From assembly GCA_937930845.1 (NCBI GenBank), contig CALHBJ010000016.1, positions 1-35,347 of the forward strand: a DNA stretch of 35,347 nt, written 5' to 3'. The notes under the pieces were generated by a model. The model made no database searches. It was not told the DNA's origin and was given only the letters and a program-made list of their open reading frames with translations. Source of the stretch: an uncultured Rhizobiaceae group bacterium. Lineage in GTDB: Bacteria; Pseudomonadota; Alphaproteobacteria; Rhizobiales; Rhizobiaceae. Made by a program: the position numbers and the translations under genes. Below are positions 990 through 25,569 of this stretch, in pieces; the first letter of the stretch is position 1, and every line of letters begins with the position of its first letter.

Positions 990-1679
990 TCACCCGATAT
1001 GGGTGCGGAAGAAATTGGTTACCTGTTTTACGAACAGATCGGCCTCCACGGTGCTTTTTGCCATTTGCGCCACGACGTCATCACTGACTTCTTCGCTCAG
1101 CACCTGACCGCGGCTTCGACCGATGAATGTGGCGATATAGTCTGGCCGATATTCGGGATGAAACTGCACGGAGAGCGCTGGGAAATCATAGGCCAGACCT
1201 GCAACAGGGCAGTAGTCGGCTGACGCGATCACGCTGGCACCGGGCGGCACTTTGGTCACTTGATCCTGGTGCCACACATGGGCGGTTGTCATTTCACCTT
1301 CGAGTTCGAATGCGCGGACACCAACTTCCGCCTCCCCCACCTTTTGCGACTTCCCACCAAACACATCGGCCATGATCTGATGCCCAAAGCAGATGCCGAA
1401 CAAGGGCTTGTTAGTGGCACGTGCATCCAGCAAAAACCGGCGCAATGGTGACATCCATTCGGCGTCGTCATAGGTGCCTTTATCAGAGCCCGACAGGATG
1501 AACCCGTCAAACGACTCCAGATTGGGAAAGTCCGCCCCTTCGACAATATCGAAGACCGTGAGCTCAGCCTCGTTTAAACCTTGGCTAATCCAGGTGGCAA
1601 TCACGTCGCCAAACCTTGCCTGGCCCGACTGGAATTCAGGCAACCAGATACATAGATCCAGAACCGCGATTTTCACCAC
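990..1679 (-). CDS. Class I glutamine amidotransferase (GATase1) protein
   Basis: A 229-residue stand-alone GATase1 domain, a family that hydrolyses glutamine or a gamma-glutamyl amide through a Cys-His-Glu triad. The triad is complete: Cys97 in the nucleophile elbow GICFGHQI, and His174 and Glu176 in VQFHPEY. The length fits stand-alone GMP-synthase-glutaminase-like proteins found in many proteobacteria. No synthetase partner is fused. The start is a GTG that overlaps the stop of the preceding FMN subunit by 7 bases (a second GTG follows immediately), so translation is almost certainly coupled. It is the last gene of a four-gene operon that already contains a class II glutaminase subunit, so two unrelated glutaminases are co-expressed. 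A role hydrolysing a gamma-glutamylated amine or amide is possible from context but unproven. Confidence 0.88.
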   Translation of the reverse strand: MVKIAVLDLCIWLPEFQSGQARFGDVIATWISQGLNEAELTVFDIVEGADFPNLESFDGFILSGSDKGTYDDAEWMSPLRRFLLDARATNKPLFGICFGHQIMADVFGGKSQKVGEAEVGVRAFELEGEMTTAHVWHQDQVTKVPPGASVIASADYCPVAGLAYDFPALSVQFHPEYRPDYIATFIGRSRGQVLSEEVSDDVVAQMAKSTVEADLFVKQVTNFFRTHIG

Positions 1680-3097
1680 TCATACGCCCGGTCGATGCCG
1701 GCCATTTTGACACCCGTGAAGGCGGATGCCTGAAACGATAAGGCGCGCAGATCTTCGACCTCAAGATTGTGCACCGAAGATTTGCCACAAGCTTTTGCCA
1801 GTGCCGTGATCTCCATGGTCATGGCGGTTAGATATCGCGCCACACGCTCCGCGCCAGCCTTGGGGTCCATGCGCTTTTCAAGCTCGGGATCCTGGGTCGC
1901 AACCCCCACCGGGCACATGCCGGTGTGGCAATGGTGGCAAGCGCCGGGCGATGTGCCAAGCTTGGTGTAGTCGTCAATATAGCGCGGCGAGTTACACCCC
2001 ATGGCAATCATGGCGGCGTTGCCGATCATTACTGCATCTGCGCCAAGCGCAATGGCTTTGGCCGCATCAACGCCAGAGCGGATACCACCTGCCGCAACCA
2101 GGCTGACCTTGCCGGACATGCCGCATTCATCGAGGCTTTCGCGCGCCGCACGAATAGCGCTCATGGTGGGAATGCCGGTGTGGTTGAGCAACATTTCAGG
2201 GGATGCGCCAGTGCCACCTTCGGCACCATCAACCACCACAATATCAGCCCCCGCTTTGGCAGCAATTGCCACATCATACCGGGGCCGGGTGGCACCCATT
2301 TTGATGGAGATCGGCACCTTGTAATTGGTGGCAATGCGCAATTCTTCAATCTTCACCGCCAGATCATCGGCACCCAGGAAATCGGGATGGCGGATGGTGG
2401 AGCGCTGGTCCACACCTTCCGGCAATGTTCTCATTTGTGACACGCGCGGGCTGACTTTCATGCCTAGCAACAGGCCACCGGTTCCCGGTTTTGCGCCCTG
2501 CCCGACCACGAGTTCAAGGCCATCGGCACGGCGCAGGTGATCGAGATCAACACCATAGCGGGCGGGGGACATTTGGTAGATCAATCTTTGGGAAGCCTCG
2601 CGCTCTTCTTCCAACATGCCGCCTTCGCCGGTGCAGGTCATGGTCCCGACCTTGGATGCACCAAACCCAAGGGATGCTTTGGCCGATGCCGACAGCGCGC
2701 CAAACGACATGGACGCGATATAGATTGGAATTTTCAGCACGAGGGGGTATTCGACAATGCCGCGTCCGCCGCCCAAAATGGTGGTTGTGTCACAGCTTTC
2801 GCGATAGCCCTCCAGCGGCAATCTGGTCATCGTTGCAGGAACGAAAGTCAGATCGTCAAAGGTCGGCATTTGTTTGTTAAACGTGTTGTAGCCGCGCACC
2901 TGGTAGCGGCCCAACTGGGCCAGCGCATGGACTTCCGAAATGGCTTCCGGTGTCCACCTTGTGGAGCCACCTTCGTCATAGGAAGAAGGAACGCCCGCAG
3001 GTCGGCCCTCCATTGCGCCAGCATCGCGAAAGCGGATTTCGTCTTCGCTGGGCAGTTCAAAGGGATATTCGTAGGGTTCGTTCAGATCATGAGCCAT
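1673..3097 (-). CDS. FMN-binding glutamate-synthase-like subunit (GlxD / MgsC type)
   Basis: A 474-residue protein of the GltS FMN-binding (Glu_synthase) family. The core TIM barrel shows IYIASMSFGALS (about 125-136), the GGTGASP loop (294-300) and AAGGIRSGVDAAKA (335-348). An iron-sulfur cysteine cluster is seen as C387-X2-C390-X4-C395 followed by PVGVATQ, comparable to the 3Fe-4S region of glutamate synthase. In the GlxBCD/MgsABC arrangement this subunit transfers ammonia, or methylamine in the case of N-methylglutamate synthase, onto an oxoglutarate-type acceptor using reduced FMN. The ATG at 3097 overlaps the GXGXG gene by 16 bases. The order class II GATase, GXGXG, FMN barrel matches both glxBCD of rhizobia and mgsABC of the N-methylglutamate pathway; I cannot separate these by eye, so no symbol is given. 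No gmaS or mgdABCD is in the window. Confidence 0.9.
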   Translation of the reverse strand: MAHDLNEPYEYPFELPSEDEIRFRDAGAMEGRPAGVPSSYDEGGSTRWTPEAISEVHALAQLGRYQVRGYNTFNKQMPTFDDLTFVPATMTRLPLEGYRESCDTTTILGGGRGIVEYPLVLKIPIYIASMSFGALSASAKASLGFGASKVGTMTCTGEGGMLEEEREASQRLIYQMSPARYGVDLDHLRRADGLELVVGQGAKPGTGGLLLGMKVSPRVSQMRTLPEGVDQRSTIRHPDFLGADDLAVKIEELRIATNYKVPISIKMGATRPRYDVAIAAKAGADIVVVDGAEGGTGASPEMLLNHTGIPTMSAIRAARESLDECGMSGKVSLVAAGGIRSGVDAAKAIALGADAVMIGNAAMIAMGCNSPRYIDDYTKLGTSPGACHHCHTGMCPVGVATQDPELEKRMDPKAGAERVARYLTAMTMEITALAKACGKSSVHNLEVEDLRALSFQASAFTGVKMAGIDRAYEW

Positions 3098-3774
3098 GCG
3101 CTTGCATCCCTTGCTTCAAAATACCAAAGCCGCTGTCCGGAAACCATTTTCCGCCAGTTGCGGCTGCTGTCGACAAGACCAAGCGGGTCAAGAATTGCGT
3201 CCACTTCGGCAACCTCTTCTGCGGTCGGCTCCACAACGTTCACGTCCACGCCAAGGCTCTCCACCTCACCTGCGACCCAAACTTCACCTTGCCACAGGGC
3301 GTCGGCACAGCTCGCGCCCGCACCGCCCAGCGCGATGATTTTGCCCGCATGGGCCATGAAGCCTGACTGGTATCCAATCTTACCCTCCACCACGATATTG
3401 CCGCCCTTCATGGCAACACCACACCGCGGCCCGGTATCGCCCTTGACGTGAATTGTACCGCCAATCATGGCAGCACCACAGGACATGCCTGCACGTTCAC
3501 CAATTGTGATGTGCCCCTTTGACATGCCCTCGCCGACGGCCCAGCCGGAATTGCGTTCAATGTCGATGATCGCACCCGTATTTAGCCCGCCGCAGTAATA
3601 ACCCACTGAGCCCTCAAAGCTGAGCCTGGCCCCATCGGGCAGTCCGATGCCAAGATTGTGTCGTGAAAAAGTATTTATGACGCGAATGGGTTTTCCGGCA
3701 GCGGCAGCTTCCTGGATTTCTTCATTCACTTCTTTGATATGGCGGTCGCCAACATCGACAACGTGCTCGCTCAT
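3082..3774 (-). CDS. GXGXG-motif glutamate-synthase-like subunit (GlxC / MgsB type)
   Basis: A protein of about 230 residues matching the GltS alpha-subunit C-terminal beta-helix (GXGXG) domain. Repeated Gly-rich turns are visible: SFEGSVGYYCGGLNTG, HITIGERAGMSCGAAMIGG, HVKGDTGPRCGVAMKGG, VVEGKIGYQSGFMAHAGK. In glutamate synthase this domain is a structural linker between the glutaminase and FMN domains, and here it is a separate subunit. I chose the ATG at 3774 because it overlaps the glxB-like stop as ATGA and has GGAG about 10 bases upstream; an upstream start at 3804 would add ten residues inside the previous gene. The tail of the gene overlaps the FMN subunit by 16 bases, consistent with a stoichiometric complex. 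Confidence 0.88.
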   Translation of the reverse strand: MSEHVVDVGDRHIKEVNEEIQEAAAAGKPIRVINTFSRHNLGIGLPDGARLSFEGSVGYYCGGLNTGAIIDIERNSGWAVGEGMSKGHITIGERAGMSCGAAMIGGTIHVKGDTGPRCGVAMKGGNIVVEGKIGYQSGFMAHAGKIIALGGAGASCADALWQGEVWVAGEVESLGVDVNVVEPTAEEVAEVDAILDPLGLVDSSRNWRKMVSGQRLWYFEARDASAWLMI

Positions 3775-4715
3775 GCTGCCATACTCCGGTTCCCCACACC
3801 CCAAAGGCCCGTGAGAGACGGGCCATCATAATTGATCACCTTTACCTCTTCCTGGACGATGCGGCGCACGGCCTGTTCTTCCGTCGCCACAGATAAATCA
3901 CCGTCGCGGTCGATCACCACAAGCGGCTTCATGGCAAAGCGGTCTTTGGCGAAACCAATGCCGCCGGTGTTGGCGATCATATAGGTGAACACGCCATCGA
4001 TGGAGGTGATGGATTTCTTCAATGCCTGCTCCAGTGTGAGGCCTGACTTCATCTGATCGGACACCCATACGGCGATAAGCTCGGAATCATTGCCGGTTAG
4101 AAACCGATAGCCCTGACGCTCCAGTTTTTCGCGCCAGGTGAAATAATCGGTAATCTGGCCGTTATGCACAATTGCCACATCGGAGAAGGGGCGCGCCCAA
4201 AACGGGTGAGATGCATTGGGCAGGACAGAGCTTTCCGTGGCCAGTCGTGCATGGCCCAATCCGTGGCTGCCAATCATGTCGCGCACGCCGTGCTTGTCGG
4301 CAACTTCGTTTGCGTCCCCCACATCCTTGATGATCTCAAGGCTTTTGCCACAGCTTTGCACTTCGATGCGATCTGACAGTTCATCGGCGTCCGCTACCCA
4401 GGCACTCAAATCCTTGGGTTCAGAAATTTCCATCCGGAAGCAATAGTGCTGGCTGGCATCGGTCAGAATTTCCGGGTCGCGCAGCAGTTCGGCACCGTGA
4501 TCTTTGAGCGTGTTGCGAAAATCTTCCAGGTTTGTGTCGAGCCCGGCCTTGTCAAAACCCATCCCGCGCAACACATATCCCTCGTCTCGCATGGGACCAT
4601 AGATCGCGAAGCCTGTGCTGTCGGCACCACGGTGGGATTGGGCGGCCATAAGCTCAACCAGATCGTGCCCCACCTTGCCGGGACTGTTAAGAATTCGTCC
4701 TGCGATTCCACACAT
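3771..4715 (-). CDS. Class II glutamine amidotransferase subunit (GlxB / MgsA type)
   Basis: A 314-residue Ntn-type glutaminase. After Met removal the catalytic Cys is residue 2 (MCGIAGRI). Other hallmarks are QSHRGADSTGFAIYG, GHARLATES, the NASHPF and VAIVHNGQITDYFTWR loops and TGNDSELIAVWV, as in the glutaminase domain of glutamate synthase and amidophosphoribosyltransferase. It would release ammonia, or act as a docking subunit for an amine, for the GXGXG and FMN subunits that follow in overlapping frames. The start is firm because a strong GGAGGTGAGCT ribosome site precedes the ATG. It is the first gene of the operon, and a palindromic operator lies 22-40 bases upstream, so the divergent GntR regulator very probably controls it. 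GlxB and MgsA cannot be told apart here. Confidence 0.9.
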   Translation of the reverse strand: MCGIAGRILNSPGKVGHDLVELMAAQSHRGADSTGFAIYGPMRDEGYVLRGMGFDKAGLDTNLEDFRNTLKDHGAELLRDPEILTDASQHYCFRMEISEPKDLSAWVADADELSDRIEVQSCGKSLEIIKDVGDANEVADKHGVRDMIGSHGLGHARLATESSVLPNASHPFWARPFSDVAIVHNGQITDYFTWREKLERQGYRFLTGNDSELIAVWVSDQMKSGLTLEQALKKSITSIDGVFTYMIANTGGIGFAKDRFAMKPLVVIDRDGDLSVATEEQAVRRIVQEEVKVINYDGPSLTGLWGVGNRSMAA

Positions 4716-4736
4716 AGCTCACCTCCATTTTTGCGC

Positions 4737-4755
4737 ACTGTATACAGTATACATT
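4737..4755. promoter_or_regulatory. Probable GntR operator 1, proximal to glxB-like gene
   Basis: ACTGTATACAGT at 4737-4748 is a perfect 12-bp palindrome. It is followed by a second half, so that 4740-4752 reads GTATAC-A-GTATAC. The site lies immediately upstream of the ribosome site of the glxB-like gene and includes TATACT/TATACA hexamers that could be part of its -10. It shares the core ATACTGTAT (read on the minus strand) with operator 2, 65 bp away on a centre-to-centre basis (about six helical turns). Two matching sites flanking a divergent GntR promoter region are typical of autoregulation plus operon control. No footprint data exist; the assignment is from symmetry and position. Confidence 0.75.
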
Positions 4756-4796
4756 CATCCGCAAGAGAAATTTCCGCGACCTTGCGTCTGTTTCTC

Positions 4797-4818
4797 TGCA
4801 TACTGTATACAATATGCA
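4797..4818. promoter_or_regulatory. Probable GntR operator 2, proximal to the regulator gene
   Basis: A 22-bp palindrome with outer arms TGCATA / TATGCA and inner TGTATACA. It is symmetric except for one mismatched pair. It contains ATACTGTAT at 4800-4808, identical to the core of operator 1, and ends 25 bases before the GntR start codon. A TACAAT hexamer inside it could serve as the regulator's -10. The position suggests autorepression of the gntR-type gene. Confidence 0.75.
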
Positions 4819-4843
4819 AACAGGAAGAAGCAGTTGATGGCCC

Positions 4844-5509
4844 ATGAAATTTCGTAGCATCCAACCCCAGCGCAAGCGCCTGGCCGATGAGGTATATGCC
4901 CAGCTTGTGGCGGCCATCATGCGCCGGGAGATCGGCCCGGAAGACAGGCTGGTTCAGGAGAAGCTGGCAGCCGACATGCAGATCAGCCGCACACCGGTTC
5001 GCGAGGCGCTGATGCGCCTGGAACAGGAAGGCGTGTTGGAAGTTTCCACACGGGGCAGCTTCAAACTTTACAATATGGACGCGCAGGAAGTGCGGGAACT
5101 ATACCAGTCCCGCGCTGCGGTGGAAGGTCAATGTGCGCGCATCCTTGCGGTCAATCACACGGAAGAGGACATAGCCTATCTGCGCTCCAAGGTGAAAAAG
5201 GAGGAGGCCGTTTCCGAAAACACGGCCCGTGCCTATTTTGAGGCAAACCGCAATATTCACCGCGCTTTTGTTGAAGTGGCCGGCAATCGATTTCTGCTGG
5301 ATATGTTCGACATGATCTGGGGCAAAGCGATGGCATTTTGCCTGTTTGCCGAGATCGAAAATGTGGACCTTAAAAAATCCCTGGGGGATCACATGCAATT
5401 GGTGGATGTCATAGAATCTGGCGACAAGACCGCCACTTTGGAAAAATTCATCGATCACATCCAAGACGGGTTCGATCTTCAAATGGAAGGTCTGGACAGC
5501 GGCAGTTAA
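4844..5509 (+). CDS. GntR family transcriptional regulator, FCD (FadR) subfamily
   Basis: A 221-residue regulator. The N-terminal winged helix-turn-helix (about 10-75) shows RLVQEKLAADMQISRTPVREALMRLEQEGVLEV, typical of GntR proteins. The C-terminal part is an all-helical FCD ligand-binding domain carrying the histidines usually used for a metal site (NRNIHRAF, LGDHMQLVD, FIDHIQDGF). FCD regulators bind small carboxylates, sugar acids or amino-acid-derived ligands, normally the substrate of the neighbouring pathway. It is divergent from the glx-like operon with two matching palindromes in the 128-bp gap, so it is the obvious controller of that operon. A third copy of the core at the amidase promoter (11499-11507) suggests a wider regulon. 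It ends 9 bases from the convergent stop of the hydrolase-TetR gene, and no terminator was seen there. Confidence 0.93.
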   Translation: MKFRSIQPQRKRLADEVYAQLVAAIMRREIGPEDRLVQEKLAADMQISRTPVREALMRLEQEGVLEVSTRGSFKLYNMDAQEVRELYQSRAAVEGQCARILAVNHTEEDIAYLRSKVKKEEAVSENTARAYFEANRNIHRAFVEVAGNRFLLDMFDMIWGKAMAFCLFAEIENVDLKKSLGDHMQLVDVIESGDKTATLEKFIDHIQDGFDLQMEGLDSGS

Positions 5510-5518
5510 GCCCTGCCC

Positions 5519-7513
5519 CTAAACCGATGCTATTTTTCTAGCCTCAGCTTTGGCGGCCAGTTCGGCCAGATCAGCATCCACATTTGCCGAGTAGACCTTC
5601 AAAAAAACCTGCAGACCGTGCGCAATGACGCGCAACAGGTCATCGTGATCAATGGACGCTGCGACGAAATGAAGATGATGATCGCGCGGACCGGACAGGA
5701 TAAGCGACCATAAATCCTGAGCTGCAAGTTCTGCATCTTCAATCACCAGGCTGCCCTGTGCTGCCCTGGCCGACAAGAAGCTGATCAATCCTTCCAGCGC
5801 CTTTCCCGGCCCTGCCCGGTGATAGGCCTCTGCGCTTTGTGGCCGCCGGGAGGCTTCGCCCAGGATCAGTCTTGCAAGGGAAAGCATTTCCGGGCGCAGC
5901 ACAAAGTCAGCATAGGTCCAGCTGAACTCCCACAATTGATCGACCAGACTGCCTTTTGGCTGCAATAGTGGCGTTAAAATATGCGCCCTGCCCTGCTCCA
6001 AAACGGCGGTAAATAGGCCCTGTTTGTCGCCAAAATACTGATAGAGCGTGGGCTTCGACACGCTAGCGGCCTTGGCAATGGCATCCATGGACACGCCATC
6101 AAAGCCATTTTGGCAAAACTCCAATAGCGAAGCTTCCAATATGCGGTTCTTTTTGACTTCTCGCTTTTTTGAGGTCCGCACCATGGCGGCTGGAATCTTT
6201 GCATTTGCAAAACGATTCAGAAAATCAGCAAGCAGGGTGTTGAAGGCATCAGGGGCTTCCAGATTGCAAACATGCCCGGCGTTCTCCAACACTTCAAAAC
6301 GCATGTCTTGCATCTGCATATCTGCGCAAATGCGCTTGCTCACGGCGCGGATTTCTGCTGGTGGTGCCAGCCTATCATGCTCCCCTGTGACCATAAGAAC
6401 AGGGCAATTGATCCTGGAGAAATCAAACTTTTCCGTAGGCTTACAAAAGCAGTTAAGCGCGTCGAGATAGGTCGCAGTCGGGATCGACGCCATGGAATCC
6501 TGCAACGCTTTTCGCGCCTCCAACGGGGCTTGCGGGCCACAGATAGTATCCAGCACTTCTGGCGCCATATCTGCCGGTGTCTTGCCTGAAAGAAGGGGTT
6601 GCGATCTGGACTTGCGAAACCCTTCGCGCACATCTGATGAGGCTTCGGACATGCCGGTGCACCCACCGGCCAGAACAAGGCCAGCCAGCGATTTGGGATA
6701 TCGCATGGCAAAGCTGGTTGCGATCCAACTGCCCATGGAAAGCCCGACTAAAATAAGCTTACGCGCCCCGCTGTGCCGCATGGCTTTGAGAATGTCGTTG
6801 CAATGGTCTTCAATGGTGCTTGCCGCATCGCCAAGGGCGCTTTTGCCGTATCCGCGAATGTCCAATGCGGCGAGATTGAAATTGCCCCCAAGCCCGTTCA
6901 ACTGCGGCAACCAGTTTTCGGCATTGCCACCAATGCCATGCAGAAAAAGGACAAGCGTGTTGGTTTCTTTTTGCTGGGCGCGCAGCAAGGAAAGAACTGG
7001 CTGGGTTTCTATGGTTTCGCGCCTGGTCGGGGCTGCTGATACAGATGAAGCTTTGGCTATTGGCCGCTTGGGAATTGGCAGTTCCCTATTGGCAAGCCAA
7101 TCCAACCCCTGCTCAAAAATGGACTTTGTGCCGATGGCAATCGCATCTGCTGCATGTTCTGGCACGTCCATACGAGCGGCCCATTTGACCACGGTACTGG
7201 CCTCGCCTTTTCCGTGCAATTCCACCGACCCACCGTAGGCAGTTACACCTTCTATTCCGGCAGTGAGACTGTACTGAAAACAATGATCTGAATTGCTGAA
7301 ATAGGTCAGTTGTTCGCGATATTCATTGCCATCACTGCCAATGAAAACCCGTGTTTCCTCACCGGCGTCCAGCACTACCCTTTTGGAAGTTTTAATCGCC
7401 GGGTGCCAATCGCTCCAGAAGTCGCCAACATATTGCCAAATGATATCGGGTGGCGCGCAAATCGTTCTTTCGCATTCAACCAGTCGCTGAGCCATCGCGA
7501 TTATGGACGCCAC
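5519..7513 (-). CDS. Three-domain fusion: SRPBCC / alpha-beta hydrolase / TetR regulator
   Basis: A single 664-residue uninterrupted frame with three recognisable parts. Residues 10-145 look like an SRPBCC/START-like ligand-binding domain (ERTICAPPDIIWQYVGDFW, then a run of beta strands and a C-terminal helix). Residues about 185-435 are an alpha/beta hydrolase with the oxyanion loop LFLHGIGGNAENW, nucleophile Ser259 in GLSMGS, Asp380 in TGEHDR and His414 in NAGHV. Residues about 450-660 are TetR-like, with the HTH MDAIAKAASVSKPTLYQYFGDKQ. The hydrolase could be a deformylase or lactonase acting after the NicX-like dioxygenase, but that is inference. The frame overlaps the acyl-CoA-dehydrogenase-like gene by 13 bases. 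The start at 7513 would be GTG; an ATG at 7495 is an alternative, and neither has a clear ribosome site. A TetR-type palindrome precedes the operon, suggesting autoregulation. Confidence 0.85.
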   Translation of the reverse strand: MASIIAMAQRLVECERTICAPPDIIWQYVGDFWSDWHPAIKTSKRVVLDAGEETRVFIGSDGNEYREQLTYFSNSDHCFQYSLTAGIEGVTAYGGSVELHGKGEASTVVKWAARMDVPEHAADAIAIGTKSIFEQGLDWLANRELPIPKRPIAKASSVSAAPTRRETIETQPVLSLLRAQQKETNTLVLFLHGIGGNAENWLPQLNGLGGNFNLAALDIRGYGKSALGDAASTIEDHCNDILKAMRHSGARKLILVGLSMGSWIATSFAMRYPKSLAGLVLAGGCTGMSEASSDVREGFRKSRSQPLLSGKTPADMAPEVLDTICGPQAPLEARKALQDSMASIPTATYLDALNCFCKPTEKFDFSRINCPVLMVTGEHDRLAPPAEIRAVSKRICADMQMQDMRFEVLENAGHVCNLEAPDAFNTLLADFLNRFANAKIPAAMVRTSKKREVKKNRILEASLLEFCQNGFDGVSMDAIAKAASVSKPTLYQYFGDKQGLFTAVLEQGRAHILTPLLQPKGSLVDQLWEFSWTYADFVLRPEMLSLARLILGEASRRPQSAEAYHRAGPGKALEGLISFLSARAAQGSLVIEDAELAAQDLWSLILSGPRDHHLHFVAASIDHDDLLRVIAHGLQVFLKVYSANVDADLAELAAKAEARKIASV

Positions 7514-8781: not shown

Positions 8782-8792
8782 GTTTTCTCGCT

Positions 8793-9839: not shown

Positions 9840-9867
9840 TGAAGTTCCTGACTGCTGTGATTATTTA

Positions 9868-9882
9868 ACTGAACGGTTTAGT
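9868..9882. promoter_or_regulatory. Probable TetR-type operator upstream of the nicX-like operon
   Basis: ACTGAACGGTTTAGT is a 15-bp imperfect palindrome (ACTnAAC-G-GTTnAGT), embedded in further weak symmetry over about 9861-9890. It lies 29-43 bases upstream of the dioxygenase start in the 147-bp gap after the amidase. Centre-symmetric 15-bp sites of this form are typical of TetR proteins, and the operon encodes one as the C-terminal part of its last gene. A weak promoter (TTGAAT, 16 bases, TACTAA on the minus strand) would overlap it. The link to the fusion protein is inference. Confidence 0.6.
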
Positions 9883-9986
9883 AATTAAATCAGAGATAAA
9901 TTCAATAATCCAGATAATTGGCCAAAATAATTTTCACCCAGCCTGGAGCCTTACGGGTGAATGCCTGCAAAACCGCCATGACAGGC

Positions 9987-11441: not shown

Positions 11442-11496
11442 AGCTTCCCCTCCCAGCGCCGGGGTTTTGGGCAAGGCATGCCGCGCCTGCGCTGTT

Positions 11497-11529: not shown

Positions 11530-11574
11530 CTCGCTCAGTCCCTTGATGGGGGCAATCCTGTTGGAACCATTGGA

Positions 11575-14851: not shown

Positions 14852-14877
14852 ATTGTCCTCCACCCATAGTGATTGTT

Positions 14878-17346: not shown

Positions 17347-18827
17347 AGCTGGATCCAGGCCGTTTTCAGATTCACATATTTTTCGATGGCATGGAGAGAT
17401 TTGTCTGATCCGTTTCCAGATTGGCCAACGCCGCCAAGTGGAACCGTCACATCAGGGCCACCAAATGTGTTCACGTGAACGACACCGGCTTCGATGGCAG
17501 CGATCATCCGGTGCGCCCGGGAAAGGTCAGAAGTCCACACGCCAGCAGCCAAACCATAGTCGGTTGCATTGGCCAATTGGATCGCATCCGCCTCATCTTC
17601 AAAGGTGGTGACGGTGAGAACAGGCCCAAATACTTCTTTTTGAAACAGCGTGTCTGTGGGTTTGACCCCATCAACGATTGTTGGCCCCATGTAGAAACCG
17701 CCCGTCTCGCGCAGGCTTGGAGTACCGCCCAGGATGATATTGCCACCTTCGCTCTGTGTCGTGCGCAGGGCTTGGAGATTTTGCTCCAATTGTCGGGCTG
17801 AATTGATCGCTCCGATCTGGGTGGTTAGTTGAAGCGGGTTGCCCGGTTGCATGTTGGCCGATGCGTGGGCAACGGCCTCAACAAAGTCTTTTTGGATATC
17901 TTTTTGAACCAGCAGTCGCGACCCGGCGACACATACCTGACCGGAATTTCTGAATATTCCGCCCGCGACCACTTTGGCCGCTTGGCCTAAATCTTTCGTG
18001 TCGTTGAAAACAATATGCGGGGACTTGCCCCCCAGTTCCAGATAGACCCGTTTCAAATTGGACTGGGCCGAATATTGCAACAGGCGTCGTCCGGTGCCGC
18101 CTGAGCCGGTGAAGGCGAGCACGTCCACATCCATGGACAGGGCCAAAGCTTCACCGACAACCGCACCATCACCTGTGACAACGTTGAGCACCCCTTCCGG
18201 CATTCCAGCTTCCAGCGCCAATTGCGCCATGCGTATCAACGTAAGGGAAGCGGTTTCCGGCGGTTTGACGACCACCGAATTTCCAACTGCCAGAGCGGGC
18301 CCCAGTTTCCAGGCCCCAATCATCATGGGAAAATTCCACGGGATGATCGCGCCAACTACACCCACCGGCTGATGGTGGATCATCCCCAACACGGTGTTCG
18401 GCGTTGGCGCTATTTCACCGTAGGACTTGTCGGCAGTTTCGCCATAATACCTGATGGTTGCCGCAGCTGACCCAGGCTCGGCCTTAATCGCCATGCTGAT
18501 TTCCGTGCCATTGTCACGCACCCCCAATACCGCAAGTTCCAGGGCGTGCTGTTCAATCAGGTCAGCCCATTTATGCATGATGCGCTTACGCATGGCGGGC
18601 GCCATATGCCTCCAACGCCCGTCGTTAAAGGCGGCTCTGGCGGATGCTATCGCCGCATTCATGTCTTCCGCGGTTCCATGGGCAATGGTGGTCAGCACTG
18701 ATCCATCAACCGGCGTGATCACATCCATGGCAGCGCCAGAGGAAGCCGGTACATCCTTACCATCTATGAGATGTTTGAATGCAGGCACTTCTTGGGTGCT
18801 GATTTCGTCAATTGCTTTTTGGTCCAT
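17343..18827 (-). CDS. NAD(P)-dependent aldehyde dehydrogenase
   Basis: A 494-residue ALDH superfamily enzyme with complete active site: Asn164 in PWNFPMM, Glu264 in LELGGKSPH and Cys299 in NSGQVCVAGSR, plus the cofactor loop FTGSGGTGRRLL. It oxidises an aldehyde to its carboxylate in the cytosol. The sequence style is that of betaine-aldehyde, 4-(gamma-glutamylamino)butanal or other amino-aldehyde dehydrogenases, but the substrate cannot be fixed by eye. AGGACA precedes the ATG. The gene starts 11 bases after tctA and overlaps the DMGDH-like gene by 4 bases, so it is in the same transcript as the transporter and demethylases. It could act on an aldehyde left after demethylation, deamination or ring opening. 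Confidence 0.93.
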   Translation of the reverse strand: MDQKAIDEISTQEVPAFKHLIDGKDVPASSGAAMDVITPVDGSVLTTIAHGTAEDMNAAIASARAAFNDGRWRHMAPAMRKRIMHKWADLIEQHALELAVLGVRDNGTEISMAIKAEPGSAAATIRYYGETADKSYGEIAPTPNTVLGMIHHQPVGVVGAIIPWNFPMMIGAWKLGPALAVGNSVVVKPPETASLTLIRMAQLALEAGMPEGVLNVVTGDGAVVGEALALSMDVDVLAFTGSGGTGRRLLQYSAQSNLKRVYLELGGKSPHIVFNDTKDLGQAAKVVAGGIFRNSGQVCVAGSRLLVQKDIQKDFVEAVAHASANMQPGNPLQLTTQIGAINSARQLEQNLQALRTTQSEGGNIILGGTPSLRETGGFYMGPTIVDGVKPTDTLFQKEVFGPVLTVTTFEDEADAIQLANATDYGLAAGVWTSDLSRAHRMIAAIEAGVVHVNTFGGPDVTVPLGGVGQSGNGSDKSLHAIEKYVNLKTAWIQL

Positions 18828-18838
18828 GGTGACTTGTC

Positions 18839-20356
18839 CTAACGTAGCTGGGTATCGTGGAGTTCATGATCCTCATCAGGCATGCGTTTTTTGTGTTCGT
18901 TGATCATTGTGCGGATGTGGAGCGCAATGACGATTAAAATGGTGATGAATAGAAACGCGGCAATTGGCCTGTCGATGAAATCGAGCGGCTCTTTGACCCG
19001 CGCCATGGCGCTGCGCAATTTGGTTTCCATAATACCGCCAAGCACCATGCCAAGCACAATGGGAACCACCGGCAGGTTCAGCCGTTTCAGGATGAGGCCA
19101 AGAACCCCGAACCCGGCCGCGATGGCGCAGTCGGTTGCGGAATTGCGCAATGAATACACGCCTACAAAACTCAAGGTGAGAATGACTATTCCCAAAAACC
19201 GTGTGGGGATCTGAATGATTTTCGTGAGCAGGTTTGTTGAAAACAACAAAAAGATGAGCACCATCACGTTCAACACAAGCATGGCCACATAGAGCGCCAA
19301 AACGAAATCCATCTGGTTTTGAAACAATTGTGGGCCGGGTATGACGTTGTGGACATAGAAGACGGACAGCATCATTGCGGTCAGAGCTTCGCCTGGAACA
19401 CCCAGCGCCAGGAGCGGAATCATGGCTGCTGCGGGAACGGCATTGTTGGCGGCTTCAGATGCGATCAGCCCCTCTGGCGACCCCTTCCCAAACAGCTCCG
19501 GTTTATCTGATGTTTTTTGGGCATAGGTGTAGGACATGAACTGCGCGGTAAACTCGCCCACGCCAGGTATCATGCCCATCACCACGCCAAAGCCCGATGC
19601 GGCAGACGCGACGCGCTTGTGCTGAAACAATTCTTTCAGGCCTGAAAAAAGCGACCCCGTCAGTGGCTGGGCCTGGGGGCTGCTGTCCTTTTCAACCAAC
19701 AGCAGAAAAGCTTGAGACAAGGCAAACAGGCCCAAGACAACAACAATCAGATCGACCCCGGAAGACAGCCATGTTTGTCCAAAGGTGAAACGCTGGGTGT
19801 ATTGAATGGGTTCCAGTCCTATCGTGCCCAGAAATATCCCAAAAGAGGCGAGCATCCCCGCGGCAAAAATCTGTCCTCGATGGGCGAGCACGACGAGGAC
19901 AATGCCCAATAATGCGGCGAGAAATATCTCCCGGCTGCCAAAATGGGGGGCAATCCAGGCCAGCGCCGGGGACAACAATATCAGACACAAAATGCCCACC
20001 ACGCCGCCAAAGAATGAGGCGGAATAGGCAAGCGAGACCGCCCGCCTGGAGTCTCCCCTTTGGGTCATGGGATAGCCGTCATAGGTGGTCAGCGCATTGA
20101 CCGCAGTGCCGGGTGTGTTGATCAAAATGGCGGGTATGGAGCCGCCATACATGGAGGATCCGTAAATCCCAAGCAGCATTGTCAGGCCGACCAGAGGATC
20201 AAGGGAAAATGTGGCGGGAAGCAAGATGGCAATTGCAACCGCTGCCCCCACACCTGGTATGGCCCCAATTATGACGCCGCCGATTGACCCAATCATAAGC
20301 GCCAGCAACACGTCCCACCGGGCAAGAAGGCCAAAGGCTGAAACCAGATCTTCCAT
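18839..20356 (-). CDS. tctA: Tripartite tricarboxylate transporter large permease TctA
   Basis: A 505-residue polytopic membrane protein with about a dozen hydrophobic segments, of usual TctA length. Family motifs are visible: GGVIIGAIPGVGAAVAIAILLP near the N-terminus, YGSSMYGGSIPAILINTPGTAVNALTTYDGYPM, GMIPGVGEFTAQFMSY, and ASEAANNAVPAAAMIPLLALGVPGEALTAMM in the second inverted half. With TctB and the periplasmic TctC it forms a secondary, ion-driven uptake system for carboxylates and other small anions. AAGGGGCGGC is just before the ATG, and the gene starts 9 bases after tctB. It is followed directly by the aldehyde dehydrogenase, so uptake and catabolism share a transcript. Confidence 0.96.
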   Translation of the reverse strand: MEDLVSAFGLLARWDVLLALMIGSIGGVIIGAIPGVGAAVAIAILLPATFSLDPLVGLTMLLGIYGSSMYGGSIPAILINTPGTAVNALTTYDGYPMTQRGDSRRAVSLAYSASFFGGVVGILCLILLSPALAWIAPHFGSREIFLAALLGIVLVVLAHRGQIFAAGMLASFGIFLGTIGLEPIQYTQRFTFGQTWLSSGVDLIVVVLGLFALSQAFLLLVEKDSSPQAQPLTGSLFSGLKELFQHKRVASAASGFGVVMGMIPGVGEFTAQFMSYTYAQKTSDKPELFGKGSPEGLIASEAANNAVPAAAMIPLLALGVPGEALTAMMLSVFYVHNVIPGPQLFQNQMDFVLALYVAMLVLNVMVLIFLLFSTNLLTKIIQIPTRFLGIVILTLSFVGVYSLRNSATDCAIAAGFGVLGLILKRLNLPVVPIVLGMVLGGIMETKLRSAMARVKEPLDFIDRPIAAFLFITILIVIALHIRTMINEHKKRMPDEDHELHDTQLR

Positions 20357-20365
20357 TGCCGCCCC

Positions 20366-20908
20366 TTATAAGTATGTCAGCATGAAAGACCGCAGGGCAT
20401 CCGGCAGATATTCATATACCTGTCCGCCTGGCACTTTCACCTGCAAGAATGCTTTAAACACCACCACCACCACCACGGCCGTAAGCGCTGCACAGACCAG
20501 CATTTTTTTGGTCCGATAGCCTGTGCGCATAGCCAACAAGACGGCAAATACGATGGTTGTTGGCAAATAGCCTGCTTTGGGAACAAGCGCGACATAGACC
20601 ATGAACCAGGCCACATATTCCAGGGACAGAAGCCAAAAGCTGATCTCTTTCCAACGCCCTGCAATCTTTGGAGATACGAATGCACTGGTCCAGTTTAATG
20701 AGGCAAACAGTGTCATTCCCACAATGGAAATGGCTGGCCACAGGGCGGGTTGCGCAGACCATTTGGCCCCCGATTTCCATACAGTCTGATGAGGTATCTG
20801 AACCAACAGGAACAAAGCCAGTGCCAGAAATACGCCGGCAAAAAAGAGATTGCCTGGTCGTCTATTTCGCTGAAAGAGCTGCTTTAAGGTTTTGATTTTG
20901 ACAATCAT
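20366..20908 (-). CDS. tctB: Tripartite tricarboxylate transporter small subunit TctB
   Basis: A 180-residue protein with four hydrophobic segments (LFFAGVFLALALFLLVQI; PALWPAISIVGMTLFASL; FWLLSLEYVAWFMVYVALV; YLPTTIVFAVLLAMRTGYR with a further C-terminal one VCAALTAVVVVVVFKAFL). This matches the size and topology of TctB/DUF1468 subunits, which are poorly conserved in sequence. It lies between tctC and tctA, the expected position. The ribosome site is weak and the gene lies beyond a hairpin with a T-run following tctC, so it is probably expressed at a lower level than the binding protein. Confidence 0.9.
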   Translation of the reverse strand: MIVKIKTLKQLFQRNRRPGNLFFAGVFLALALFLLVQIPHQTVWKSGAKWSAQPALWPAISIVGMTLFASLNWTSAFVSPKIAGRWKEISFWLLSLEYVAWFMVYVALVPKAGYLPTTIVFAVLLAMRTGYRTKKMLVCAALTAVVVVVVFKAFLQVKVPGGQVYEYLPDALRSFMLTYL

Positions 20909-20954
20909 GAAAGCGCATTTCCATCAGACAGACAGCCAGGAATTTATGAAAAAA

Positions 20955-20982
20955 ATGGGCGGTGCAAATGCACACCGCCCAT
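20955..20982 (-). terminator. Intrinsic terminator/attenuator between tctC and tctB
   Basis: A perfect 10-bp GC-rich stem (ATGGGCGGTG at 20955-20964 pairs with CACCGCCCAT at 20973-20982, 8-base loop) is followed on the minus strand by seven consecutive T residues (20949-20956 region). It begins 14 bases after the tctC stop and precedes tctB. As tctB, tctA and at least four more genes follow on the same strand without another obvious promoter, it probably acts as a partial terminator. It would leave abundant tctC message and reduced read-through into permease and enzyme genes. Confidence 0.85.
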
Positions 20983-20996
20983 GGGTCCAGGTATGA

Positions 20997-21938
20997 TTAT
21001 TTCAACAGATCAGCGATGACGCCCTGGGTGGCGATATCTTTTTCAATCTGCGCTGTGGATGCGGCTGCATCTTGCCAATAAACACCGGCACCGGTTTCTT
21101 TAGCGAGTTTTTGTGCCCGCTCGGAAGCCATGGTTTCCTTTGCAACAGCGATGATTTTTTCACGCACGTCAGCTGGCGTGTCCTTGTTGACGAAGAGCCC
21201 GTTCCAAAGCGCAATATTGAGCGATGGTTCAATCTCAGCCACTGTAGGCGTGTTGGGTGTGAGCGAAATGCGCTCGCTGCCGATGGAGGCCAGCACTTTT
21301 ACCTTGTCGAGACATGGCAGGACCAGTTGAATGGTCGTGTTCATCACATCCACATCGCCCGAAGCCAGTGTGTTGCAGTCCAGCGAATCAAAGGCTGCAT
21401 CGGAAGCAAAATTAAACCCTTTTGCTTTGGCGAGCGCCTTGGTCACCTGGGTCGGCACCAGGGGTGCACCAAAGTGACCCAGCGCCACATCATTGGACTG
21501 GGCATGTTTGGCCAATCCGGCGATGTCATCATAAGGCGCGTTCTCACCGGCGACGATCACAAATGGATAGGTGAGGAAAATGCCGAGAGGTTCAAACGGA
21601 TTTGGTGCCAATTCGGGAATCCCGATCTTGGGGCCAACAGTTGGCACACCGATCACAAAAGAACCGATTGTGTAGCCGTCAGCACCCGCGTTCGCCACAT
21701 GAACCGCGCCGGGGAATGGCCCGCCGCCGCCGCCTGGCTTGTTCACAACTGCAGCCGGTGAACCGTATTTCTTTTGGAAGTCTTCTGCGATCATGCGCGT
21801 CAAAACATCTTCAAGATCACCCGGTGCCCAGGGCACGATGAATTCAACTGGTTTTTCGGGATATTCTGCATTTGCAGCAGCACCCGTAAACAGCATTGCT
21901 GTCGCGGCGAGCGCAGCCAAAGTCATTTTCTTGAACAT
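20997..21938 (-). CDS. tctC: TTT-family periplasmic substrate-binding protein TctC
   Basis: A 313-residue TctC/Bug-type binding protein. A Sec signal peptide is clear (MFKKMTLAALAATAMLF ... AAANA|EYPEKPVEF), followed by the family motif region VEFIVPWAPGDLEDVLTRM. The usual Gly-Gly-x-x-Asp loop reads GDLEDV, a small departure in the part that contacts the ligand carboxylate. The rest shows PGGGGGPFPGAVHVANAGADGYTIG and DVALGHFGAPLVPTQVTKALAKA. A strong GGGAGGAATTTT site precedes the ATG. It is the first gene of the long catabolic operon and divergent from an IclR regulator, so it likely binds the inducing substrate in the periplasm. The hairpin behind it supports excess binding-protein production. 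Confidence 0.94.
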   Translation of the reverse strand: MFKKMTLAALAATAMLFTGAAANAEYPEKPVEFIVPWAPGDLEDVLTRMIAEDFQKKYGSPAAVVNKPGGGGGPFPGAVHVANAGADGYTIGSFVIGVPTVGPKIGIPELAPNPFEPLGIFLTYPFVIVAGENAPYDDIAGLAKHAQSNDVALGHFGAPLVPTQVTKALAKAKGFNFASDAAFDSLDCNTLASGDVDVMNTTIQLVLPCLDKVKVLASIGSERISLTPNTPTVAEIEPSLNIALWNGLFVNKDTPADVREKIIAVAKETMASERAQKLAKETGAGVYWQDAAASTAQIEKDIATQGVIADLLK

Positions 21939-22000
21939 AAAATTCCTCCCAGAATAAGCCCGTCAACGGGTGTTCAATTTGAGTATTGTCAATTCTGTTA

Positions 22001-22023
22001 ATCGGTTTATTATTTGAACCGAT
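22001..22023. promoter_or_regulatory. Probable IclR operator in the tctC / iclR intergenic region
   Basis: Perfect 7-bp arms ATCGGTT (22001-22007) and AACCGAT (22017-22023) with a 9-base AT-rich spacer. The site lies 62-85 bases upstream of the tctC start in the 183-bp divergent region. A candidate tctC promoter reads leftwards just upstream (TTGACA at 22063-22058 with only a weak -10, CAAACT, 17 bases on), which would place the repeat downstream of the -10, as expected for a repressor site. Assignment to the adjacent IclR protein rests on position. Confidence 0.6.
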
Positions 22024-22121
22024 GTTGCGGAAATAGTTTGCCCTGCCCAGAAAACTCTGTCAACGTGCAAGAAGATTATCCCGTCCACTGTGTGTGAAAG
22101 TTTGAAAGCGTTGAGAGCAAT

Positions 22122-22907
22122 ATGGGTACGATCACCAAAGCGCTGGACCTTCTAAATCTCTTTTCGTGCGAGCAACCGGAGATTGCCTTGTCGCAATTCA
22201 AGAAGACAACAGGGCAGGATAAGGCGACTGTGTACCGTCACTTGAGCGAATTACAGGCTAATGGATTTCTGGAGCAAAACCCCGCGACAAAGGCCTATCG
22301 GCTGGGCCCGGCCCTGCTGCGCCTTGCGGCCATGAGAGAGCAAACCTATCCGTTGCGCAAAGTGGTGGCACCCTGGGTGGATGAATTGTCACGCAGGCTC
22401 AGTGAACTGGTACATGTCTCGGTTTTGCAAAACGATCATATGTGCCCGATCTATCACAGCAATCTGCACAGCCACGGCACCCGCGTGCATATTGATGAGA
22501 CCGAGAAACTGCCCCTGCATGCCACATCGTCCGGCGTGTCGATGCTGGCATTTGGGCCCGACGGCCTGATGGCCCAAACCCTGGCGCGCCCATTGGATGC
22601 CTTTACGCCAAAAACCATTACGTCGGCTGGAAAGCTGGAAGGCGAGGTTTTGCGCACCCGGCGGCGCGGCTATTCATACACCGATCAGGGATTTGAATCT
22701 GAAGTGTGTTCGCTGGCCATGCCCATCTTCGATGCGGAATTGCGGGCCTTTGGCACGCTCGCAGTGGCCGTGCCCTCATCGCGCATGAACAGGGCGATGA
22801 AGGAAAATATCGTCAAAGAATTGATCAGTTCCAGTTCAGCCGTATCCCAAGCATTGGGCGGAGCGGTGCCGCTGGAAATTGAAGAATTATGGAAGAAGGC
22901 AGCCTAG
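22122..22907 (+). CDS. IclR family transcriptional regulator
   Basis: A 261-residue protein with an N-terminal winged HTH (ALSQFKKTTGQDKATVYRHLSELQANGFLEQ, about 22-55) and the C-terminal IclR effector domain (LVHVSVLQNDHMCPIYHSN, LPLHATSSGVSMLAF, RRRGYSYTDQGFESEVCSLAMPIFD, FGTLAVAVPSSRM). The effector domain contains the usual LH.T..G signature. IclR proteins respond to small carboxylates and aromatic or heterocyclic catabolites. It is divergent from the tctCBA-catabolic operon and co-directional with the aminotransferase, which starts 2 bases after its stop, so it probably regulates both directions and itself. Start at the ATG preceded by GAGAG. Confidence 0.93.
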   Translation: MGTITKALDLLNLFSCEQPEIALSQFKKTTGQDKATVYRHLSELQANGFLEQNPATKAYRLGPALLRLAAMREQTYPLRKVVAPWVDELSRRLSELVHVSVLQNDHMCPIYHSNLHSHGTRVHIDETEKLPLHATSSGVSMLAFGPDGLMAQTLARPLDAFTPKTITSAGKLEGEVLRTRRRGYSYTDQGFESEVCSLAMPIFDAELRAFGTLAVAVPSSRMNRAMKENIVKELISSSSAVSQALGGAVPLEIEELWKKAA

Positions 22908-22909
22908 AT

Positions 22910-24283
22910 ATGAATGTACACGTGAAAGACGATAATTTTCTGAAAGAAAACAATGCCCGTCACATGTGGCATCCCATGGCACATCCCGCTGACAGTCTTG
23001 CCAACCCGCCTGCCATCATCACCAAGGGCGAAGGCGTTCACATCACAGATATTGATGGCCACAGGGTTGTCGATGCCGTCGGTGGCCTTTGGAACGTCAA
23101 TCTTGGCTTTTCATGCGAACCGGTGAAACAGGCCATCACACGCCAGCTTGACGTATTGCCCTATTACTCCACCTTCCGGGGCACCACGAATGATTGCGCA
23201 ATCGAGCTTTCCTATGAGCTTGCCAATTTCTTTGAACCCGATGGTCTAGTGCGGGCTTTTTATACATCCGGCGGCGGGGACAGTGTGGAAACGGCTTTGC
23301 GCCTGTCACGGCAATATCACAAAGTGCGCGGCGAGCCGGGACGTGTGAAATTCATCAGCCTCAAAAAGGGCTATCACGGCACCCATATGGGCGGCGCAAG
23401 TGTCAATGGGAATGCCAATTTCAGAACTCAGTATGAGCCTCTGTTGCCCGGCTGCCACCACATTCCTGCCCCCTATACCTATCGCAATCCCTTCAATGAG
23501 AGTGATCCGGCAAAACTGGCGCAGCTCTGCGCTGCGGCACTGGAAGACGAAATTGCGTTTCAGGGCGCCAGTACGATTGCGGCCTTTATCATGGAACCTA
23601 TTTTGGGTGCCGGTGGGGTCATTCCACCCCATGAAAGCTTCATGCCCATGGTGCGCGAAATTTGCGACCGCAATGGCATATTGCTGATTGCCGATGAGGT
23701 CATCACCGCCTTTGGCAGAACGGGTTCCTGGAGCGGTTCACGCCATTGGGGCGTGAAGCCGGACATGGCCTGCACTGCCAAAGCCATCACCAACGGATAT
23801 TTCCCTTTTGGCGCCGTGATGATGGCCCAGGGGGTTGTGGATGTGTTTGAAAATGACAAAACAGGAAATGCCAATGTGGGGCACGGTTATACCTATTCCG
23901 GCCATCCCGTTGGCGCAGCTGCCGCAATCGCCTGCCTGGCCGAAACCAAACGCCTCAATGTTGCCGACAATGCTGCTGCACGTGGCAAGGAACTATATGA
24001 GGGCTGCCTCAAGCTGATGGAAAAATATGAACTCATTGGCGATGTCCGTGGTGGACACGGCCTGATGACAGCCATGGAACTTGTATCCGACCGGAAAACC
24101 AAAATGCCGATTGATAAAGCGCTGCCGATGCGCCTGCAGGAGGCGACTTATCAAAACGGCACAATGGTTCGGGTTTCCGGACCCAACGTGATTTTGTCAC
24201 CGGCTCTGATCTTAACCCAGGCGGACGTGGAAACGATATTGTCTTCGCTGGATGCCGGTTTTTCCGCCGTATCGGGCAACTGA
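22910..24283 (+). CDS. Class III (omega) aminotransferase, PLP-dependent
   Basis: A protein of about 457 residues of the class III aminotransferase family. Landmarks are FYTSGGGDSVETALRLSRQYH, KKGYHGTHMGG, LLIADEVITAFGRTGSWSGS with the PLP-ring Asp, and the Schiff-base lysine in ACTAKAITNGYFPFGAVM (about residue 291). N-terminal HMWHPMAHP resembles beta-alanine:pyruvate and taurine:pyruvate-type enzymes. It transfers an amino group from an omega- or beta-amino acid or amine to pyruvate or 2-oxoglutarate. The ATG at 22910 follows the IclR stop by 2 bases; an ATG at 22889 inside iclR would add seven residues and cannot be excluded. Operonic with iclR and the MBL-fold gene (3-base gap). It may process the amino acid left after N-demethylation. 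Confidence 0.93.
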   Translation: MNVHVKDDNFLKENNARHMWHPMAHPADSLANPPAIITKGEGVHITDIDGHRVVDAVGGLWNVNLGFSCEPVKQAITRQLDVLPYYSTFRGTTNDCAIELSYELANFFEPDGLVRAFYTSGGGDSVETALRLSRQYHKVRGEPGRVKFISLKKGYHGTHMGGASVNGNANFRTQYEPLLPGCHHIPAPYTYRNPFNESDPAKLAQLCAAALEDEIAFQGASTIAAFIMEPILGAGGVIPPHESFMPMVREICDRNGILLIADEVITAFGRTGSWSGSRHWGVKPDMACTAKAITNGYFPFGAVMMAQGVVDVFENDKTGNANVGHGYTYSGHPVGAAAAIACLAETKRLNVADNAAARGKELYEGCLKLMEKYELIGDVRGGHGLMTAMELVSDRKTKMPIDKALPMRLQEATYQNGTMVRVSGPNVILSPALILTQADVETILSSLDAGFSAVSGN

Positions 24284-24286
24284 CCC

Positions 24287-25479: not shown

Positions 25480-25569
25480 TGGACTGACGATGCGATCGCC
25501 CGAATTCAAGAGTCTGCCTAACAATACTCCACTGCCAAATTGAAACACAATTTAGAAGGTGCACGCTCC

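Follow-up and report, generated by a model that had tools for sequence, protein, structure and literature searches.

The question raised by this locus is whether a dense run of catabolic genes from an uncultured Rhizobiaceae group bacterium serves one pathway and, if so, what kind of compound is degraded by it; the bacterium is of a marine type. The stretch analysed here, hereafter the window, is the entire contig C16 (35347 bases) within a 3.76-Mb genome and, being a complete contig, has assembly ends at both borders. An earlier note, made from the letters alone, had described positions 990-24283 as a single island for the import and degradation of an N-methylated nitrogen compound, possibly an N-methylpyridinium carboxylate. 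Genes were called from the open reading frame listing, translation, hidden Markov model (HMM) scans with Pfam and NCBIfam, and relatives of solved structure. All the gene types named in that note were found in their places by HMM scans, with the NicX-like enzyme recognised through a solved relative; its list lacked four further genes, coding for a class-I amidotransferase (990-1679), two regulators of the GntR/FCD (4844-5509) and IclR (22122-22907) types, and an MBL-fold hydrolase (24287-25147). Instead of a single unit, the region consists of three separately conserved blocks, namely M1 (11575-25147), M2 (5519-9839) and M3 (990-5509). With moderate confidence, we interpret it as a composite catabolic island in which a betaine-type import and demethylation module (M1) is combined with a module of the NicX type that opens a ring and has an altered specificity (M2).

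Block M1 includes the following genes, one of its intergenic regions carrying a hairpin:

11575-13620, minus strand: OYE/TMADH-family flavoprotein, histamine-dehydrogenase-like, putative amine dehydrogenase or N-demethylase (3k30, 1.3e-184)
13613-14863, minus strand: Tm-1-like ATP-binding protein, UPF0261 (PF06792/PF23189)
14878-17346, minus strand: DMGDH/SARDH-like FAD/folate demethylase with DAO and GCV_T domains (human DMGDH 5l46, 1.2e-119)
17343-18827, minus strand: aldehyde dehydrogenase, ALDH (PF00171, 2.2e-155)
18839-20356, minus strand: TctA (PF01970, 1.2e-131)
20366-20908, minus strand: TctB (PF07331, 6.2e-11)
20955-20982, minus strand: terminator-like hairpin of 12 pairs with a T run, between tctC and tctB
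20997-21938, minus strand: TctC solute-binding protein (PF03401, 3.7e-20)
22122-22907, plus strand: IclR regulator, divergent from tctC (PF01614, PF09339)
22889-24283, plus strand: class-III aminotransferase, PRK07481 subfamily (743 bits against a cut-off of 575)
24287-25147, plus strand: MBL-fold hydrolase (PF12706, PF00753)

The aminotransferase described across the divergent promoter is present, although the first gene there codes for the IclR regulator. Of 393 other family genomes, nine have an ortholog of the DMGDH-like protein (at least 64% identity), as do 2 of 384 further genomes in a class sample, and all 11 neighbourhoods were mapped over stretches of 14-46 kb. The Tm-1-like gene adjoins the DMGDH gene in 11/11 of them; also present are TctA in nine, the OYE gene in seven, ALDH in six and the aminotransferase in five. 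Two genomes of one other genus, G645 and G608, possess all 10 genes from OYE to MBL in the order and divergence of the window, with identities of 50-88%, and M1 is partial in the remaining nine; the MBL gene follows the aminotransferase gene in these two genomes and in L075. Four plasmids (L104, L105, L107, L109) carry M1, complete or partial, and plasmid-borne M1 was seen in two Yoonia copies and in S. fredii as well as, without the DMGDH and OYE genes, in Pseudosulfitobacter and Ruegeria TM1040. In S. fredii, M1 is adjoined by genes for ETF, ETF-QO, folD and purU, which is consistent with folate-linked demethylation. A Rieske oxygenase gene adjoins M1 in G672 and G606, both of the window's genus, and in L105: the product of the first is closest to carnitine monooxygenase 6y8j (5.3e-38, below cut-off), the L105 enzyme resembles GbcA (298.6 bits, below cut-off), and that of G606 was recognised by eye. 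The conservation of M1 as a unit, together with these three Rieske neighbours, supports the proposal that the block imports and N-demethylates a betaine-like compound.

The flavoprotein encoded by the OYE gene had been called a TMADH-like demethylase. The family holds, with a match over the full length, but the protein scores higher with histamine dehydrogenase (3k30, 618 bits) than with TMADH (450 bits). At the position of TMADH Cys30, the site of the cysteinyl-FMN, it reads Ala (PHATG), as does 6l6j, the sequence in histamine dehydrogenase being PHCNG. The protein retains the 4Fe-4S cysteines and the counterparts of TMADH Y169, H172 and D267, and has Leu in place of Y60 (numbering counted by hand). 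The DMGDH-like protein shares with dimethylglycine dehydrogenase and the sarcosine demethylation enzymes the DAO plus GCV_T architecture and the TWHAAG motif, which serves FAD linkage; the context differs, however, in the Tm-1-like, OYE, TctABC and aminotransferase genes. For the ALDH, the best model is PuuC (522.6 bits against a cut-off of 850), and the PuuC, BADH, HpaE and StyD models outscore those for succinate-semialdehyde, every one of them staying under its cut-off.

Known Rieske demethylation systems act on carnitine, glycine betaine and stachydrine, and the Rieske genes beside M1 bring in an aliphatic version of the pathway, in which M1 would demethylate an omega-amino-acid betaine (gamma-butyrobetaine, carnitine, beta-alanine betaine or aminovalerate betaine) to the omega-amino acid, the aminotransferase, or a kinase and phospho-lyase, would complete the route together with the ALDH, and M2 would be an unrelated neighbour. 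This version draws on the carnitine monooxygenase-like enzyme of G672 and the GbcA-like one of L105, and on a class-III lyase-like aminotransferase and APH kinase pair in 4 of the 11 DMGDH loci (G590, G466, G021, G066), a pair that would presumably fit beta-hydroxy-amines such as demethylated carnitine. The transporter suits it as well: TTT transporters usually carry carboxylates. The model preferences of the ALDH, none above cut-off, speak against it, and it leaves unexplained both the TctC subfamily common to M1 and M2 loci and the ring genes beside M1 described below. We consider it somewhat unlikely.

Block M2 and the amidase gene separating it from M1 are composed as follows:

5519-7513, minus strand: fusion of SRPBCC, alpha/beta hydrolase and TetR parts, putative hydrolase and repressor (PF10604, PF00561, PF00440, PF14246)
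7501-8781, minus strand: ACAD-fold flavoprotein, probably a monooxygenase (PF02771/PF02770)
8793-9839, minus strand: NicX-like non-haem Fe(II) ring-cleavage dioxygenase of the E177T clade (7cn3 NicX, 9e-52)
9987-11474, minus strand: amidase-signature amidase (PF01425, 1.7e-87; PRK06170 above cut-off)

As the dioxygenase gave no Pfam or NCBIfam match, its identity is taken from the solved relative 7cn3. In the NicX paper (PMC7910607), the iron ligands are given as His265, Ser302, His318 and Asp320, with Glu177 hydrogen-bonding N1 and O1 of 2,5-dihydroxypyridine and His189 bonding O1. The window protein retains all four iron ligands. Among 51 core rows (at least 60% identity, window included), H265 and D320 are conserved in 51/51 and S302 and H318 in 50/51, the exception being L051. 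Position 177 is occupied by Thr in 51/51 core rows and by Glu in all three nicotinate-cluster controls (L098, L099, L100), to which the window protein is 35-36% identical. Both H105 and H189 are His throughout the core rows; H189 is kept in 3/3 controls and H105 is Phe in two of the three, which makes the latter a poor family marker. The 11 more distant rows, among which one gene is represented twice, have Val, Gly, Ile or Ser at position 177 and never Glu; three of them carry Asn in place of H189. With the iron ligands kept and E177 replaced, the iron chemistry is likely retained and the substrate is probably other than plain 2,5-dihydroxypyridine.

The own genome of the window contains a second NicX type (L074, C10:25743-26771), 53% identical to the window copy and accompanied by genes for a TRAP transporter, a hydrolase, an ACAD and a CoA ligase; His189 is replaced by Asn in L074 and in L075.

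With the nicotinate nic cluster (NicX, NicD, NicE, NicF, NicC, NicAB) the window shares a NicX-family dioxygenase with its iron ligands and an alpha/beta hydrolase. It differs in the E177 to Thr replacement and in that nicC, nicE, nicF and the molybdenum hydroxylase gene nicMo had no match in the window (E 1e-12, 40% coverage, 30% identity), and the nicotinate pathway was rejected on these two grounds. For the same reasons the N-methylpyridinium substrate, which the earlier note had given as an example beside other betaines, does not follow from the evidence. In such a version a homarine- or trigonelline-type carboxylate would be opened by the NicX-like enzyme. In NicX, E177 hydrogen-bonds N1 and O1 of 2,5-dihydroxypyridine (PMC7910607), and its loss in 51/51 core rows would be compatible with a carboxylated N-methyl ring. 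By our own chemical reasoning, 5,6-cleavage and deformylation of 5-hydroxylated homarine would give a five-carbon N-methyl amino diacid. The likeness to homarine catabolism consists of the N-methylated compound and an N-methylglutamate dehydrogenase step; this dehydrogenase is reported to act in homarine breakdown (PMC13390433). Position 177 is, however, also without Glu in the second NicX type (0 of 11 rows), so its loss is not specific, and a free amine is suggested by the presence of glutamine-synthetase-like and amidotransferase genes as partners. We consider this substrate improbable.

The ACAD-fold protein has 5gj7/5z8t as its closest solved relatives, with nitrososynthase 3mxl and DnmZ among others, and reads MLPYTTE at the place of the YEGT-type motif, apparently without the catalytic Glu (judged by eye against MCAD). 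The third M2 gene does code for a fused chain of hydrolase and TetR parts, as had been described, but with three domains, SRPBCC being the third. Among 69 loci, of which L080 duplicates L042, the hydrolase and TetR parts share one frame in 22, lie in two frames in 29 and are incomplete in 18; the occurrence of one frame in 22 loci makes a frame error unlikely. To our knowledge, fusion of an enzyme and a regulator is unusual for TetR, and this protein may act as a one-chain enzyme-regulator. In L009 the fusion frame extends into a glutamine-synthetase-like part, giving 1139 aa. Neither the fusion nor the Tm-1-like protein of M1 has a match in PADLOC, and a defence link considered for the two was dropped on this ground.

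The conservation of M2 was followed in 64 NicX loci fetched with the window protein (identities mostly 67-86%, 41-55% in L059-L064; flanks up to 10 kb as far as the contigs reached), the records belonging to Alphaproteobacteria, Gammaproteobacteria and two metagenome-assembled genomes labelled Chloroflexi. An ACAD gene (at least 60% identity) accompanies NicX in 54/64 loci, in L056 on the opposite strand, and is missing from the other 10 (L025, L048, L051, L057, L059-L064). Further partners near NicX are a glutamine-synthetase-like gene in at least 28/64 loci, a flavin reductase gene (at least 44% identity) in at least 20/64, a gentisate-dioxygenase-like cupin with FAH in at least 11/64, and a P450 with another glutamine-synthetase-like gene in at least 6/64, these counts being lower bounds because loci shorter than 5 kb were excluded from them. 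The flavin reductase resembles RutF and HpaC with scores below cut-off. The run of Ensifer adhaerens bears the annotations peptidase M29, acyl-CoA dehydrogenase, alpha/beta hydrolase, TetR, glutamine synthetase family, flavin reductase and APC permease, and it is repeated in Aminobacter aminovorans with a LysR-substrate-binding annotation replacing the reductase. Of 179 other genomes in the family, 15 contain relatives of NicX, eight of them with a 69-72% copy and the others with only 46-52%, and in 19 of 288 other class-sample genomes (47-58%).

The glutamine-synthetase-like partner was considered as a gamma-glutamylmethylamide synthetase, which is not supported. For the L049 homolog, the best match is among other glutamine synthetases (3.2e-50), ahead of 7cql (1.9e-24) and of the glutamate-methylamine ligase 9qur (1.5e-22), and its scores fall well short of the NCBIfam cut-offs.

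Arylacetate ring genes adjoin 5/17 M1-type loci compared with 3/64 NicX loci (L003, L004, L044; Fisher p 0.009), a comparison in which the flags for the 17 loci were entered by hand from maps of unequal stretches, L075 had been chosen through NicX, L108 holds part of M1 only, and lone hpaE-, hpaG- and paaE-like matches were left uncounted in both sets. The genes beside M1 are hmgA/maiA in S. fredii (L106), G014 and Yoonia (L109, about 10 kb off), paaA-E in Ruegeria TM1040 (L107, about 5 kb from the aminotransferase gene) and hpaD/E/G/H in the congeneric L075. They point at a different substrate than the Rieske neighbours do, namely an N-methylated arylethylamine or a related compound of the hordenine, N-methyltyramine or synephrine type. 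The demethylated amine would then be converted into an arylacetaldehyde and an arylacetate, and the ring would enter either M2 or one of the pathways through homogentisate, homoprotocatechuate or phenylacetyl-CoA. HpaD scores above cut-off in L004 and L075, as does HpaH in L075. Near M2, a pyridoxal phosphate-dependent decarboxylase (Pyridoxal_deC) occurs in L003 and L004, being of the aromatic type by eye only, with diaminobutyrate, aspartate and tyrosine decarboxylases as its best NCBIfam models, all under cut-off; an annotated tyramine oxidase subunit B occurs in L068, its Pfam match being ornithine cyclodeaminase/mu-crystallin. Against the aromatic amine, 12 of the 17 M1-type loci contain no arylacetate genes in the fetched stretches, which are unequal and whose neighbours are possibly there by chance; the hmgA and hpaD genes of the window's own genome are unlinked, lying on other contigs; and the transporter type suits carboxylates. 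We regard this substrate as a tentative possibility. Its version, the aliphatic one and the N-methylpyridinium one are mostly the composite reading with other substrates, so their probabilities overlap with it.

In L004, positions 5539-16554 carry on one strand genes for hpaD, the decarboxylase, hpaG, hpaH, NicX, ACAD, the fusion, a class-III lyase-like aminotransferase and an APH kinase.

Block M3 is a glx-like operon with a divergent regulator gene:

990-1679, minus strand: class-I glutamine amidotransferase (GATase), last gene of the operon (PF00117, 9.2e-17)
1673-3097, minus strand: glutamate-synthase FMN domain protein, GltS (PF01645, 5.2e-99)
3082-3804, minus strand: GXGXG protein (PF01493, 4.9e-16)
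3771-4715, minus strand: GATase_6 protein (PF13522, 1.3e-15)
4844-5509, plus strand: GntR/FCD regulator, divergent from the trio (PF07729, PF00392)

The protein encoded at 1673-3097 is presumably MgsC/GlxD-like, and those at 3082-3804 and 3771-4715 were likened to MgsB/GlxC and MgsA/GlxB. The trio had been described as N-methylglutamate-synthase-like, and its domains do match those of the N-methylglutamate pathway (gmaS, mgsABC, mgdABCD). It differs, however, in its additional class-I GATase and in having no gmaS alongside; a gmaS-type gene scoring above cut-off lies instead on contig C1, adjoined by a second, mgs-type trio that is 31-52% identical to the one in the window (GltS 52%, C1:69219) and lies about 13 kb from a SoxD-type gene. 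The window trio being a paralog of that one, its identification as a canonical N-methylglutamate synthase was rejected, and a flow of nitrogen to N-methylglutamate through it is at best conjectural. In Aliishimia (L011), M2 and M3 have the order and orientation of the window with few additional genes between them; the trio there is 78% (GATase_6), 87% (GXGXG) and 93% (GltS) identical, and the amidotransferase (61%) and the GntR regulator (78%) occupy the same places. The trio of L048 is 71-88% identical (GltS 88%), with the GltS gene immediately before NicX, the GntR regulator (46%) in its place and ACAD not found.

M1 and M2 are connected by the binding protein of the transporter. The TctC tree unites the proteins from M1 loci and from NicX loci in a single branch (100/100), with three other TctC proteins outside it; inside the branch, sequences from loci with M1 only, with NicX only and with both are intermingled. 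A TctC of at least 60% identity lies near NicX in 10/64 loci, such proteins being rare (57 of 72,556 plasmid records). This common subfamily makes it plausible that M1 and M2 serve one substrate. Sister genomes L020 and L033 have TctABC, ALDH, OYE and Tm-1 genes joined to the NicX block without the DMGDH gene, and a second NicX type stands beside Tm-1, ALDH, TctABC, aminotransferase and MBL genes in the congener L075 and beside Tm-1 in the congener L117. Partial co-occurrence of the blocks was thus found, M2 with M1 genes in L020/L033 and M2 with M3 in L011 and L048, but all three together in none of the other NicX and DMGDH loci mapped.

Several observations weigh against a joint function. 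No second genome with the NicX, demethylase and glx blocks was met among the 64 NicX loci (flanks up to 10 kb) and the 11 DMGDH loci (14-46 kb), so the single island with a fixed gene set was not borne out. In the 11 DMGDH loci, the NicX, ACAD, fusion and trio proteins had no match (0/11), and only L020 and L033 of the 64 NicX loci carry the OYE and Tm-1 genes of M1. The amidase is not a conserved partner of either adjoining block, as homolog loci show distant matches only (28-36%). The window contains neither a flavin reductase gene adjoining ACAD nor a Rieske demethylase gene, and the sole GbcA-type match of the genome is weak and under cut-off. The window TctC lies with those of the M1-only loci G580, G608 and G645, and a quick tree places the NicX of the window among sequences from Rhodobacterales and Gammaproteobacteria (top identity 86%, L003); the NicX proteins of other sampled family members are at most 72% identical to it. 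Such different relatives mean that the join may be recent and that the blocks may serve different compounds. This suggests, tentatively, that M2, together with M3, was acquired by transfer and joined a resident M1.

The same trees, suggesting different donors, and the occurrence of M1 and M2 alone elsewhere favour the view that the three blocks are chance neighbours, each an independent cassette that ended up in a catabolic hot spot, with no common substrate. It has to face the recurrent pairing of M1 genes with NicX (L020/L033, L075, L117) and of M2 with M3 (L011, L048), as well as the common TctC subfamily, and we consider it somewhat unlikely.

Under the composite reading, TctABC of M1, with an IclR gene adjacent, would import a carboxylated, N-methylated amine of the betaine type. 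The OYE/histamine-dehydrogenase-like flavoprotein and the DMGDH-like enzyme would strip its methyl groups, the latter passing the one-carbon units to tetrahydrofolate; the primary amine thus released would be converted by the class-III aminotransferase into an aldehyde, which the ALDH would oxidise to an acid. In M2, the ACAD-fold flavin monooxygenase would hydroxylate the ring for subsequent cleavage by the E177T NicX-type Fe(II) dioxygenase, after which the hydrolase part of the fusion would split the cleavage product and its TetR part would control the operon. Nitrogen would be recovered by the amidase and the glx-like trio of M3. The gene identities, the conservation of the iron site and of the blocks, and the common TctC subfamily are observations; each reaction, their order and the action of M1 and M2 on one molecule are inferences.

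Along the minus-strand run, the intergenic gaps measure from -13 to +147 bases, which makes a single transcript from tctC through the fusion gene plausible, the widest gaps being those on both sides of the amidase gene (100 and 147). In the operon of the trio and the amidotransferase (990-4715), successive genes overlap. The hairpin between tctC and tctB could raise expression of the binding protein, and terminator-like sites across the whole region are not more numerous than in shuffles. Scanning of the window gave no tRNA genes and no Rfam matches above the gathering score.

The remainder of the contig holds a SoxC-type sulfite dehydrogenase gene (TIGR04555, 544 bits against a cut-off of 420) followed by one for a c-type cytochrome (25540-27382), a pair with no match in the other mapped M1 loci. 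Two genes for very large proteins lie at 29175-35346, one product having 1236 aa without a Pfam match and the other having DUF11 repeats and ending at the contig edge. At the opposite border, a DUF1611_N protein (2-439) is truncated by the contig end and is possibly the D-glutamate enzyme DgcN.

A bolder proposal, which we regard as doubtful, is that the E177T NicX clade is a new class of ring-cleavage enzyme opening an N-methylated or non-pyridine ring with an amine side chain, partnered by an ACAD-type hydroxylase and a self-regulating hydrolase-TetR chain and joined here to a module that demethylates betaines; a single run of operon size would then carry an N-methylated ring compound all the way from uptake to central metabolism. 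If it is true, an enzyme sensing the pathway compound itself controls the operon. The degraded compound may be new. A literature search of titles and abstract openings, covering part of the literature, gave no account of the M1 or M2 gene set; with the present description, two recurrent catabolic blocks for which no description was found become testable. M1, the block that would demethylate a betaine-like compound, is recurrent both in genomes of the Rhizobiaceae type and on plasmids of the Roseobacter type, and identification of the substrate would name a nitrogen compound used by many bacteria and assign the Tm-1-like (UPF0261) family to a pathway.

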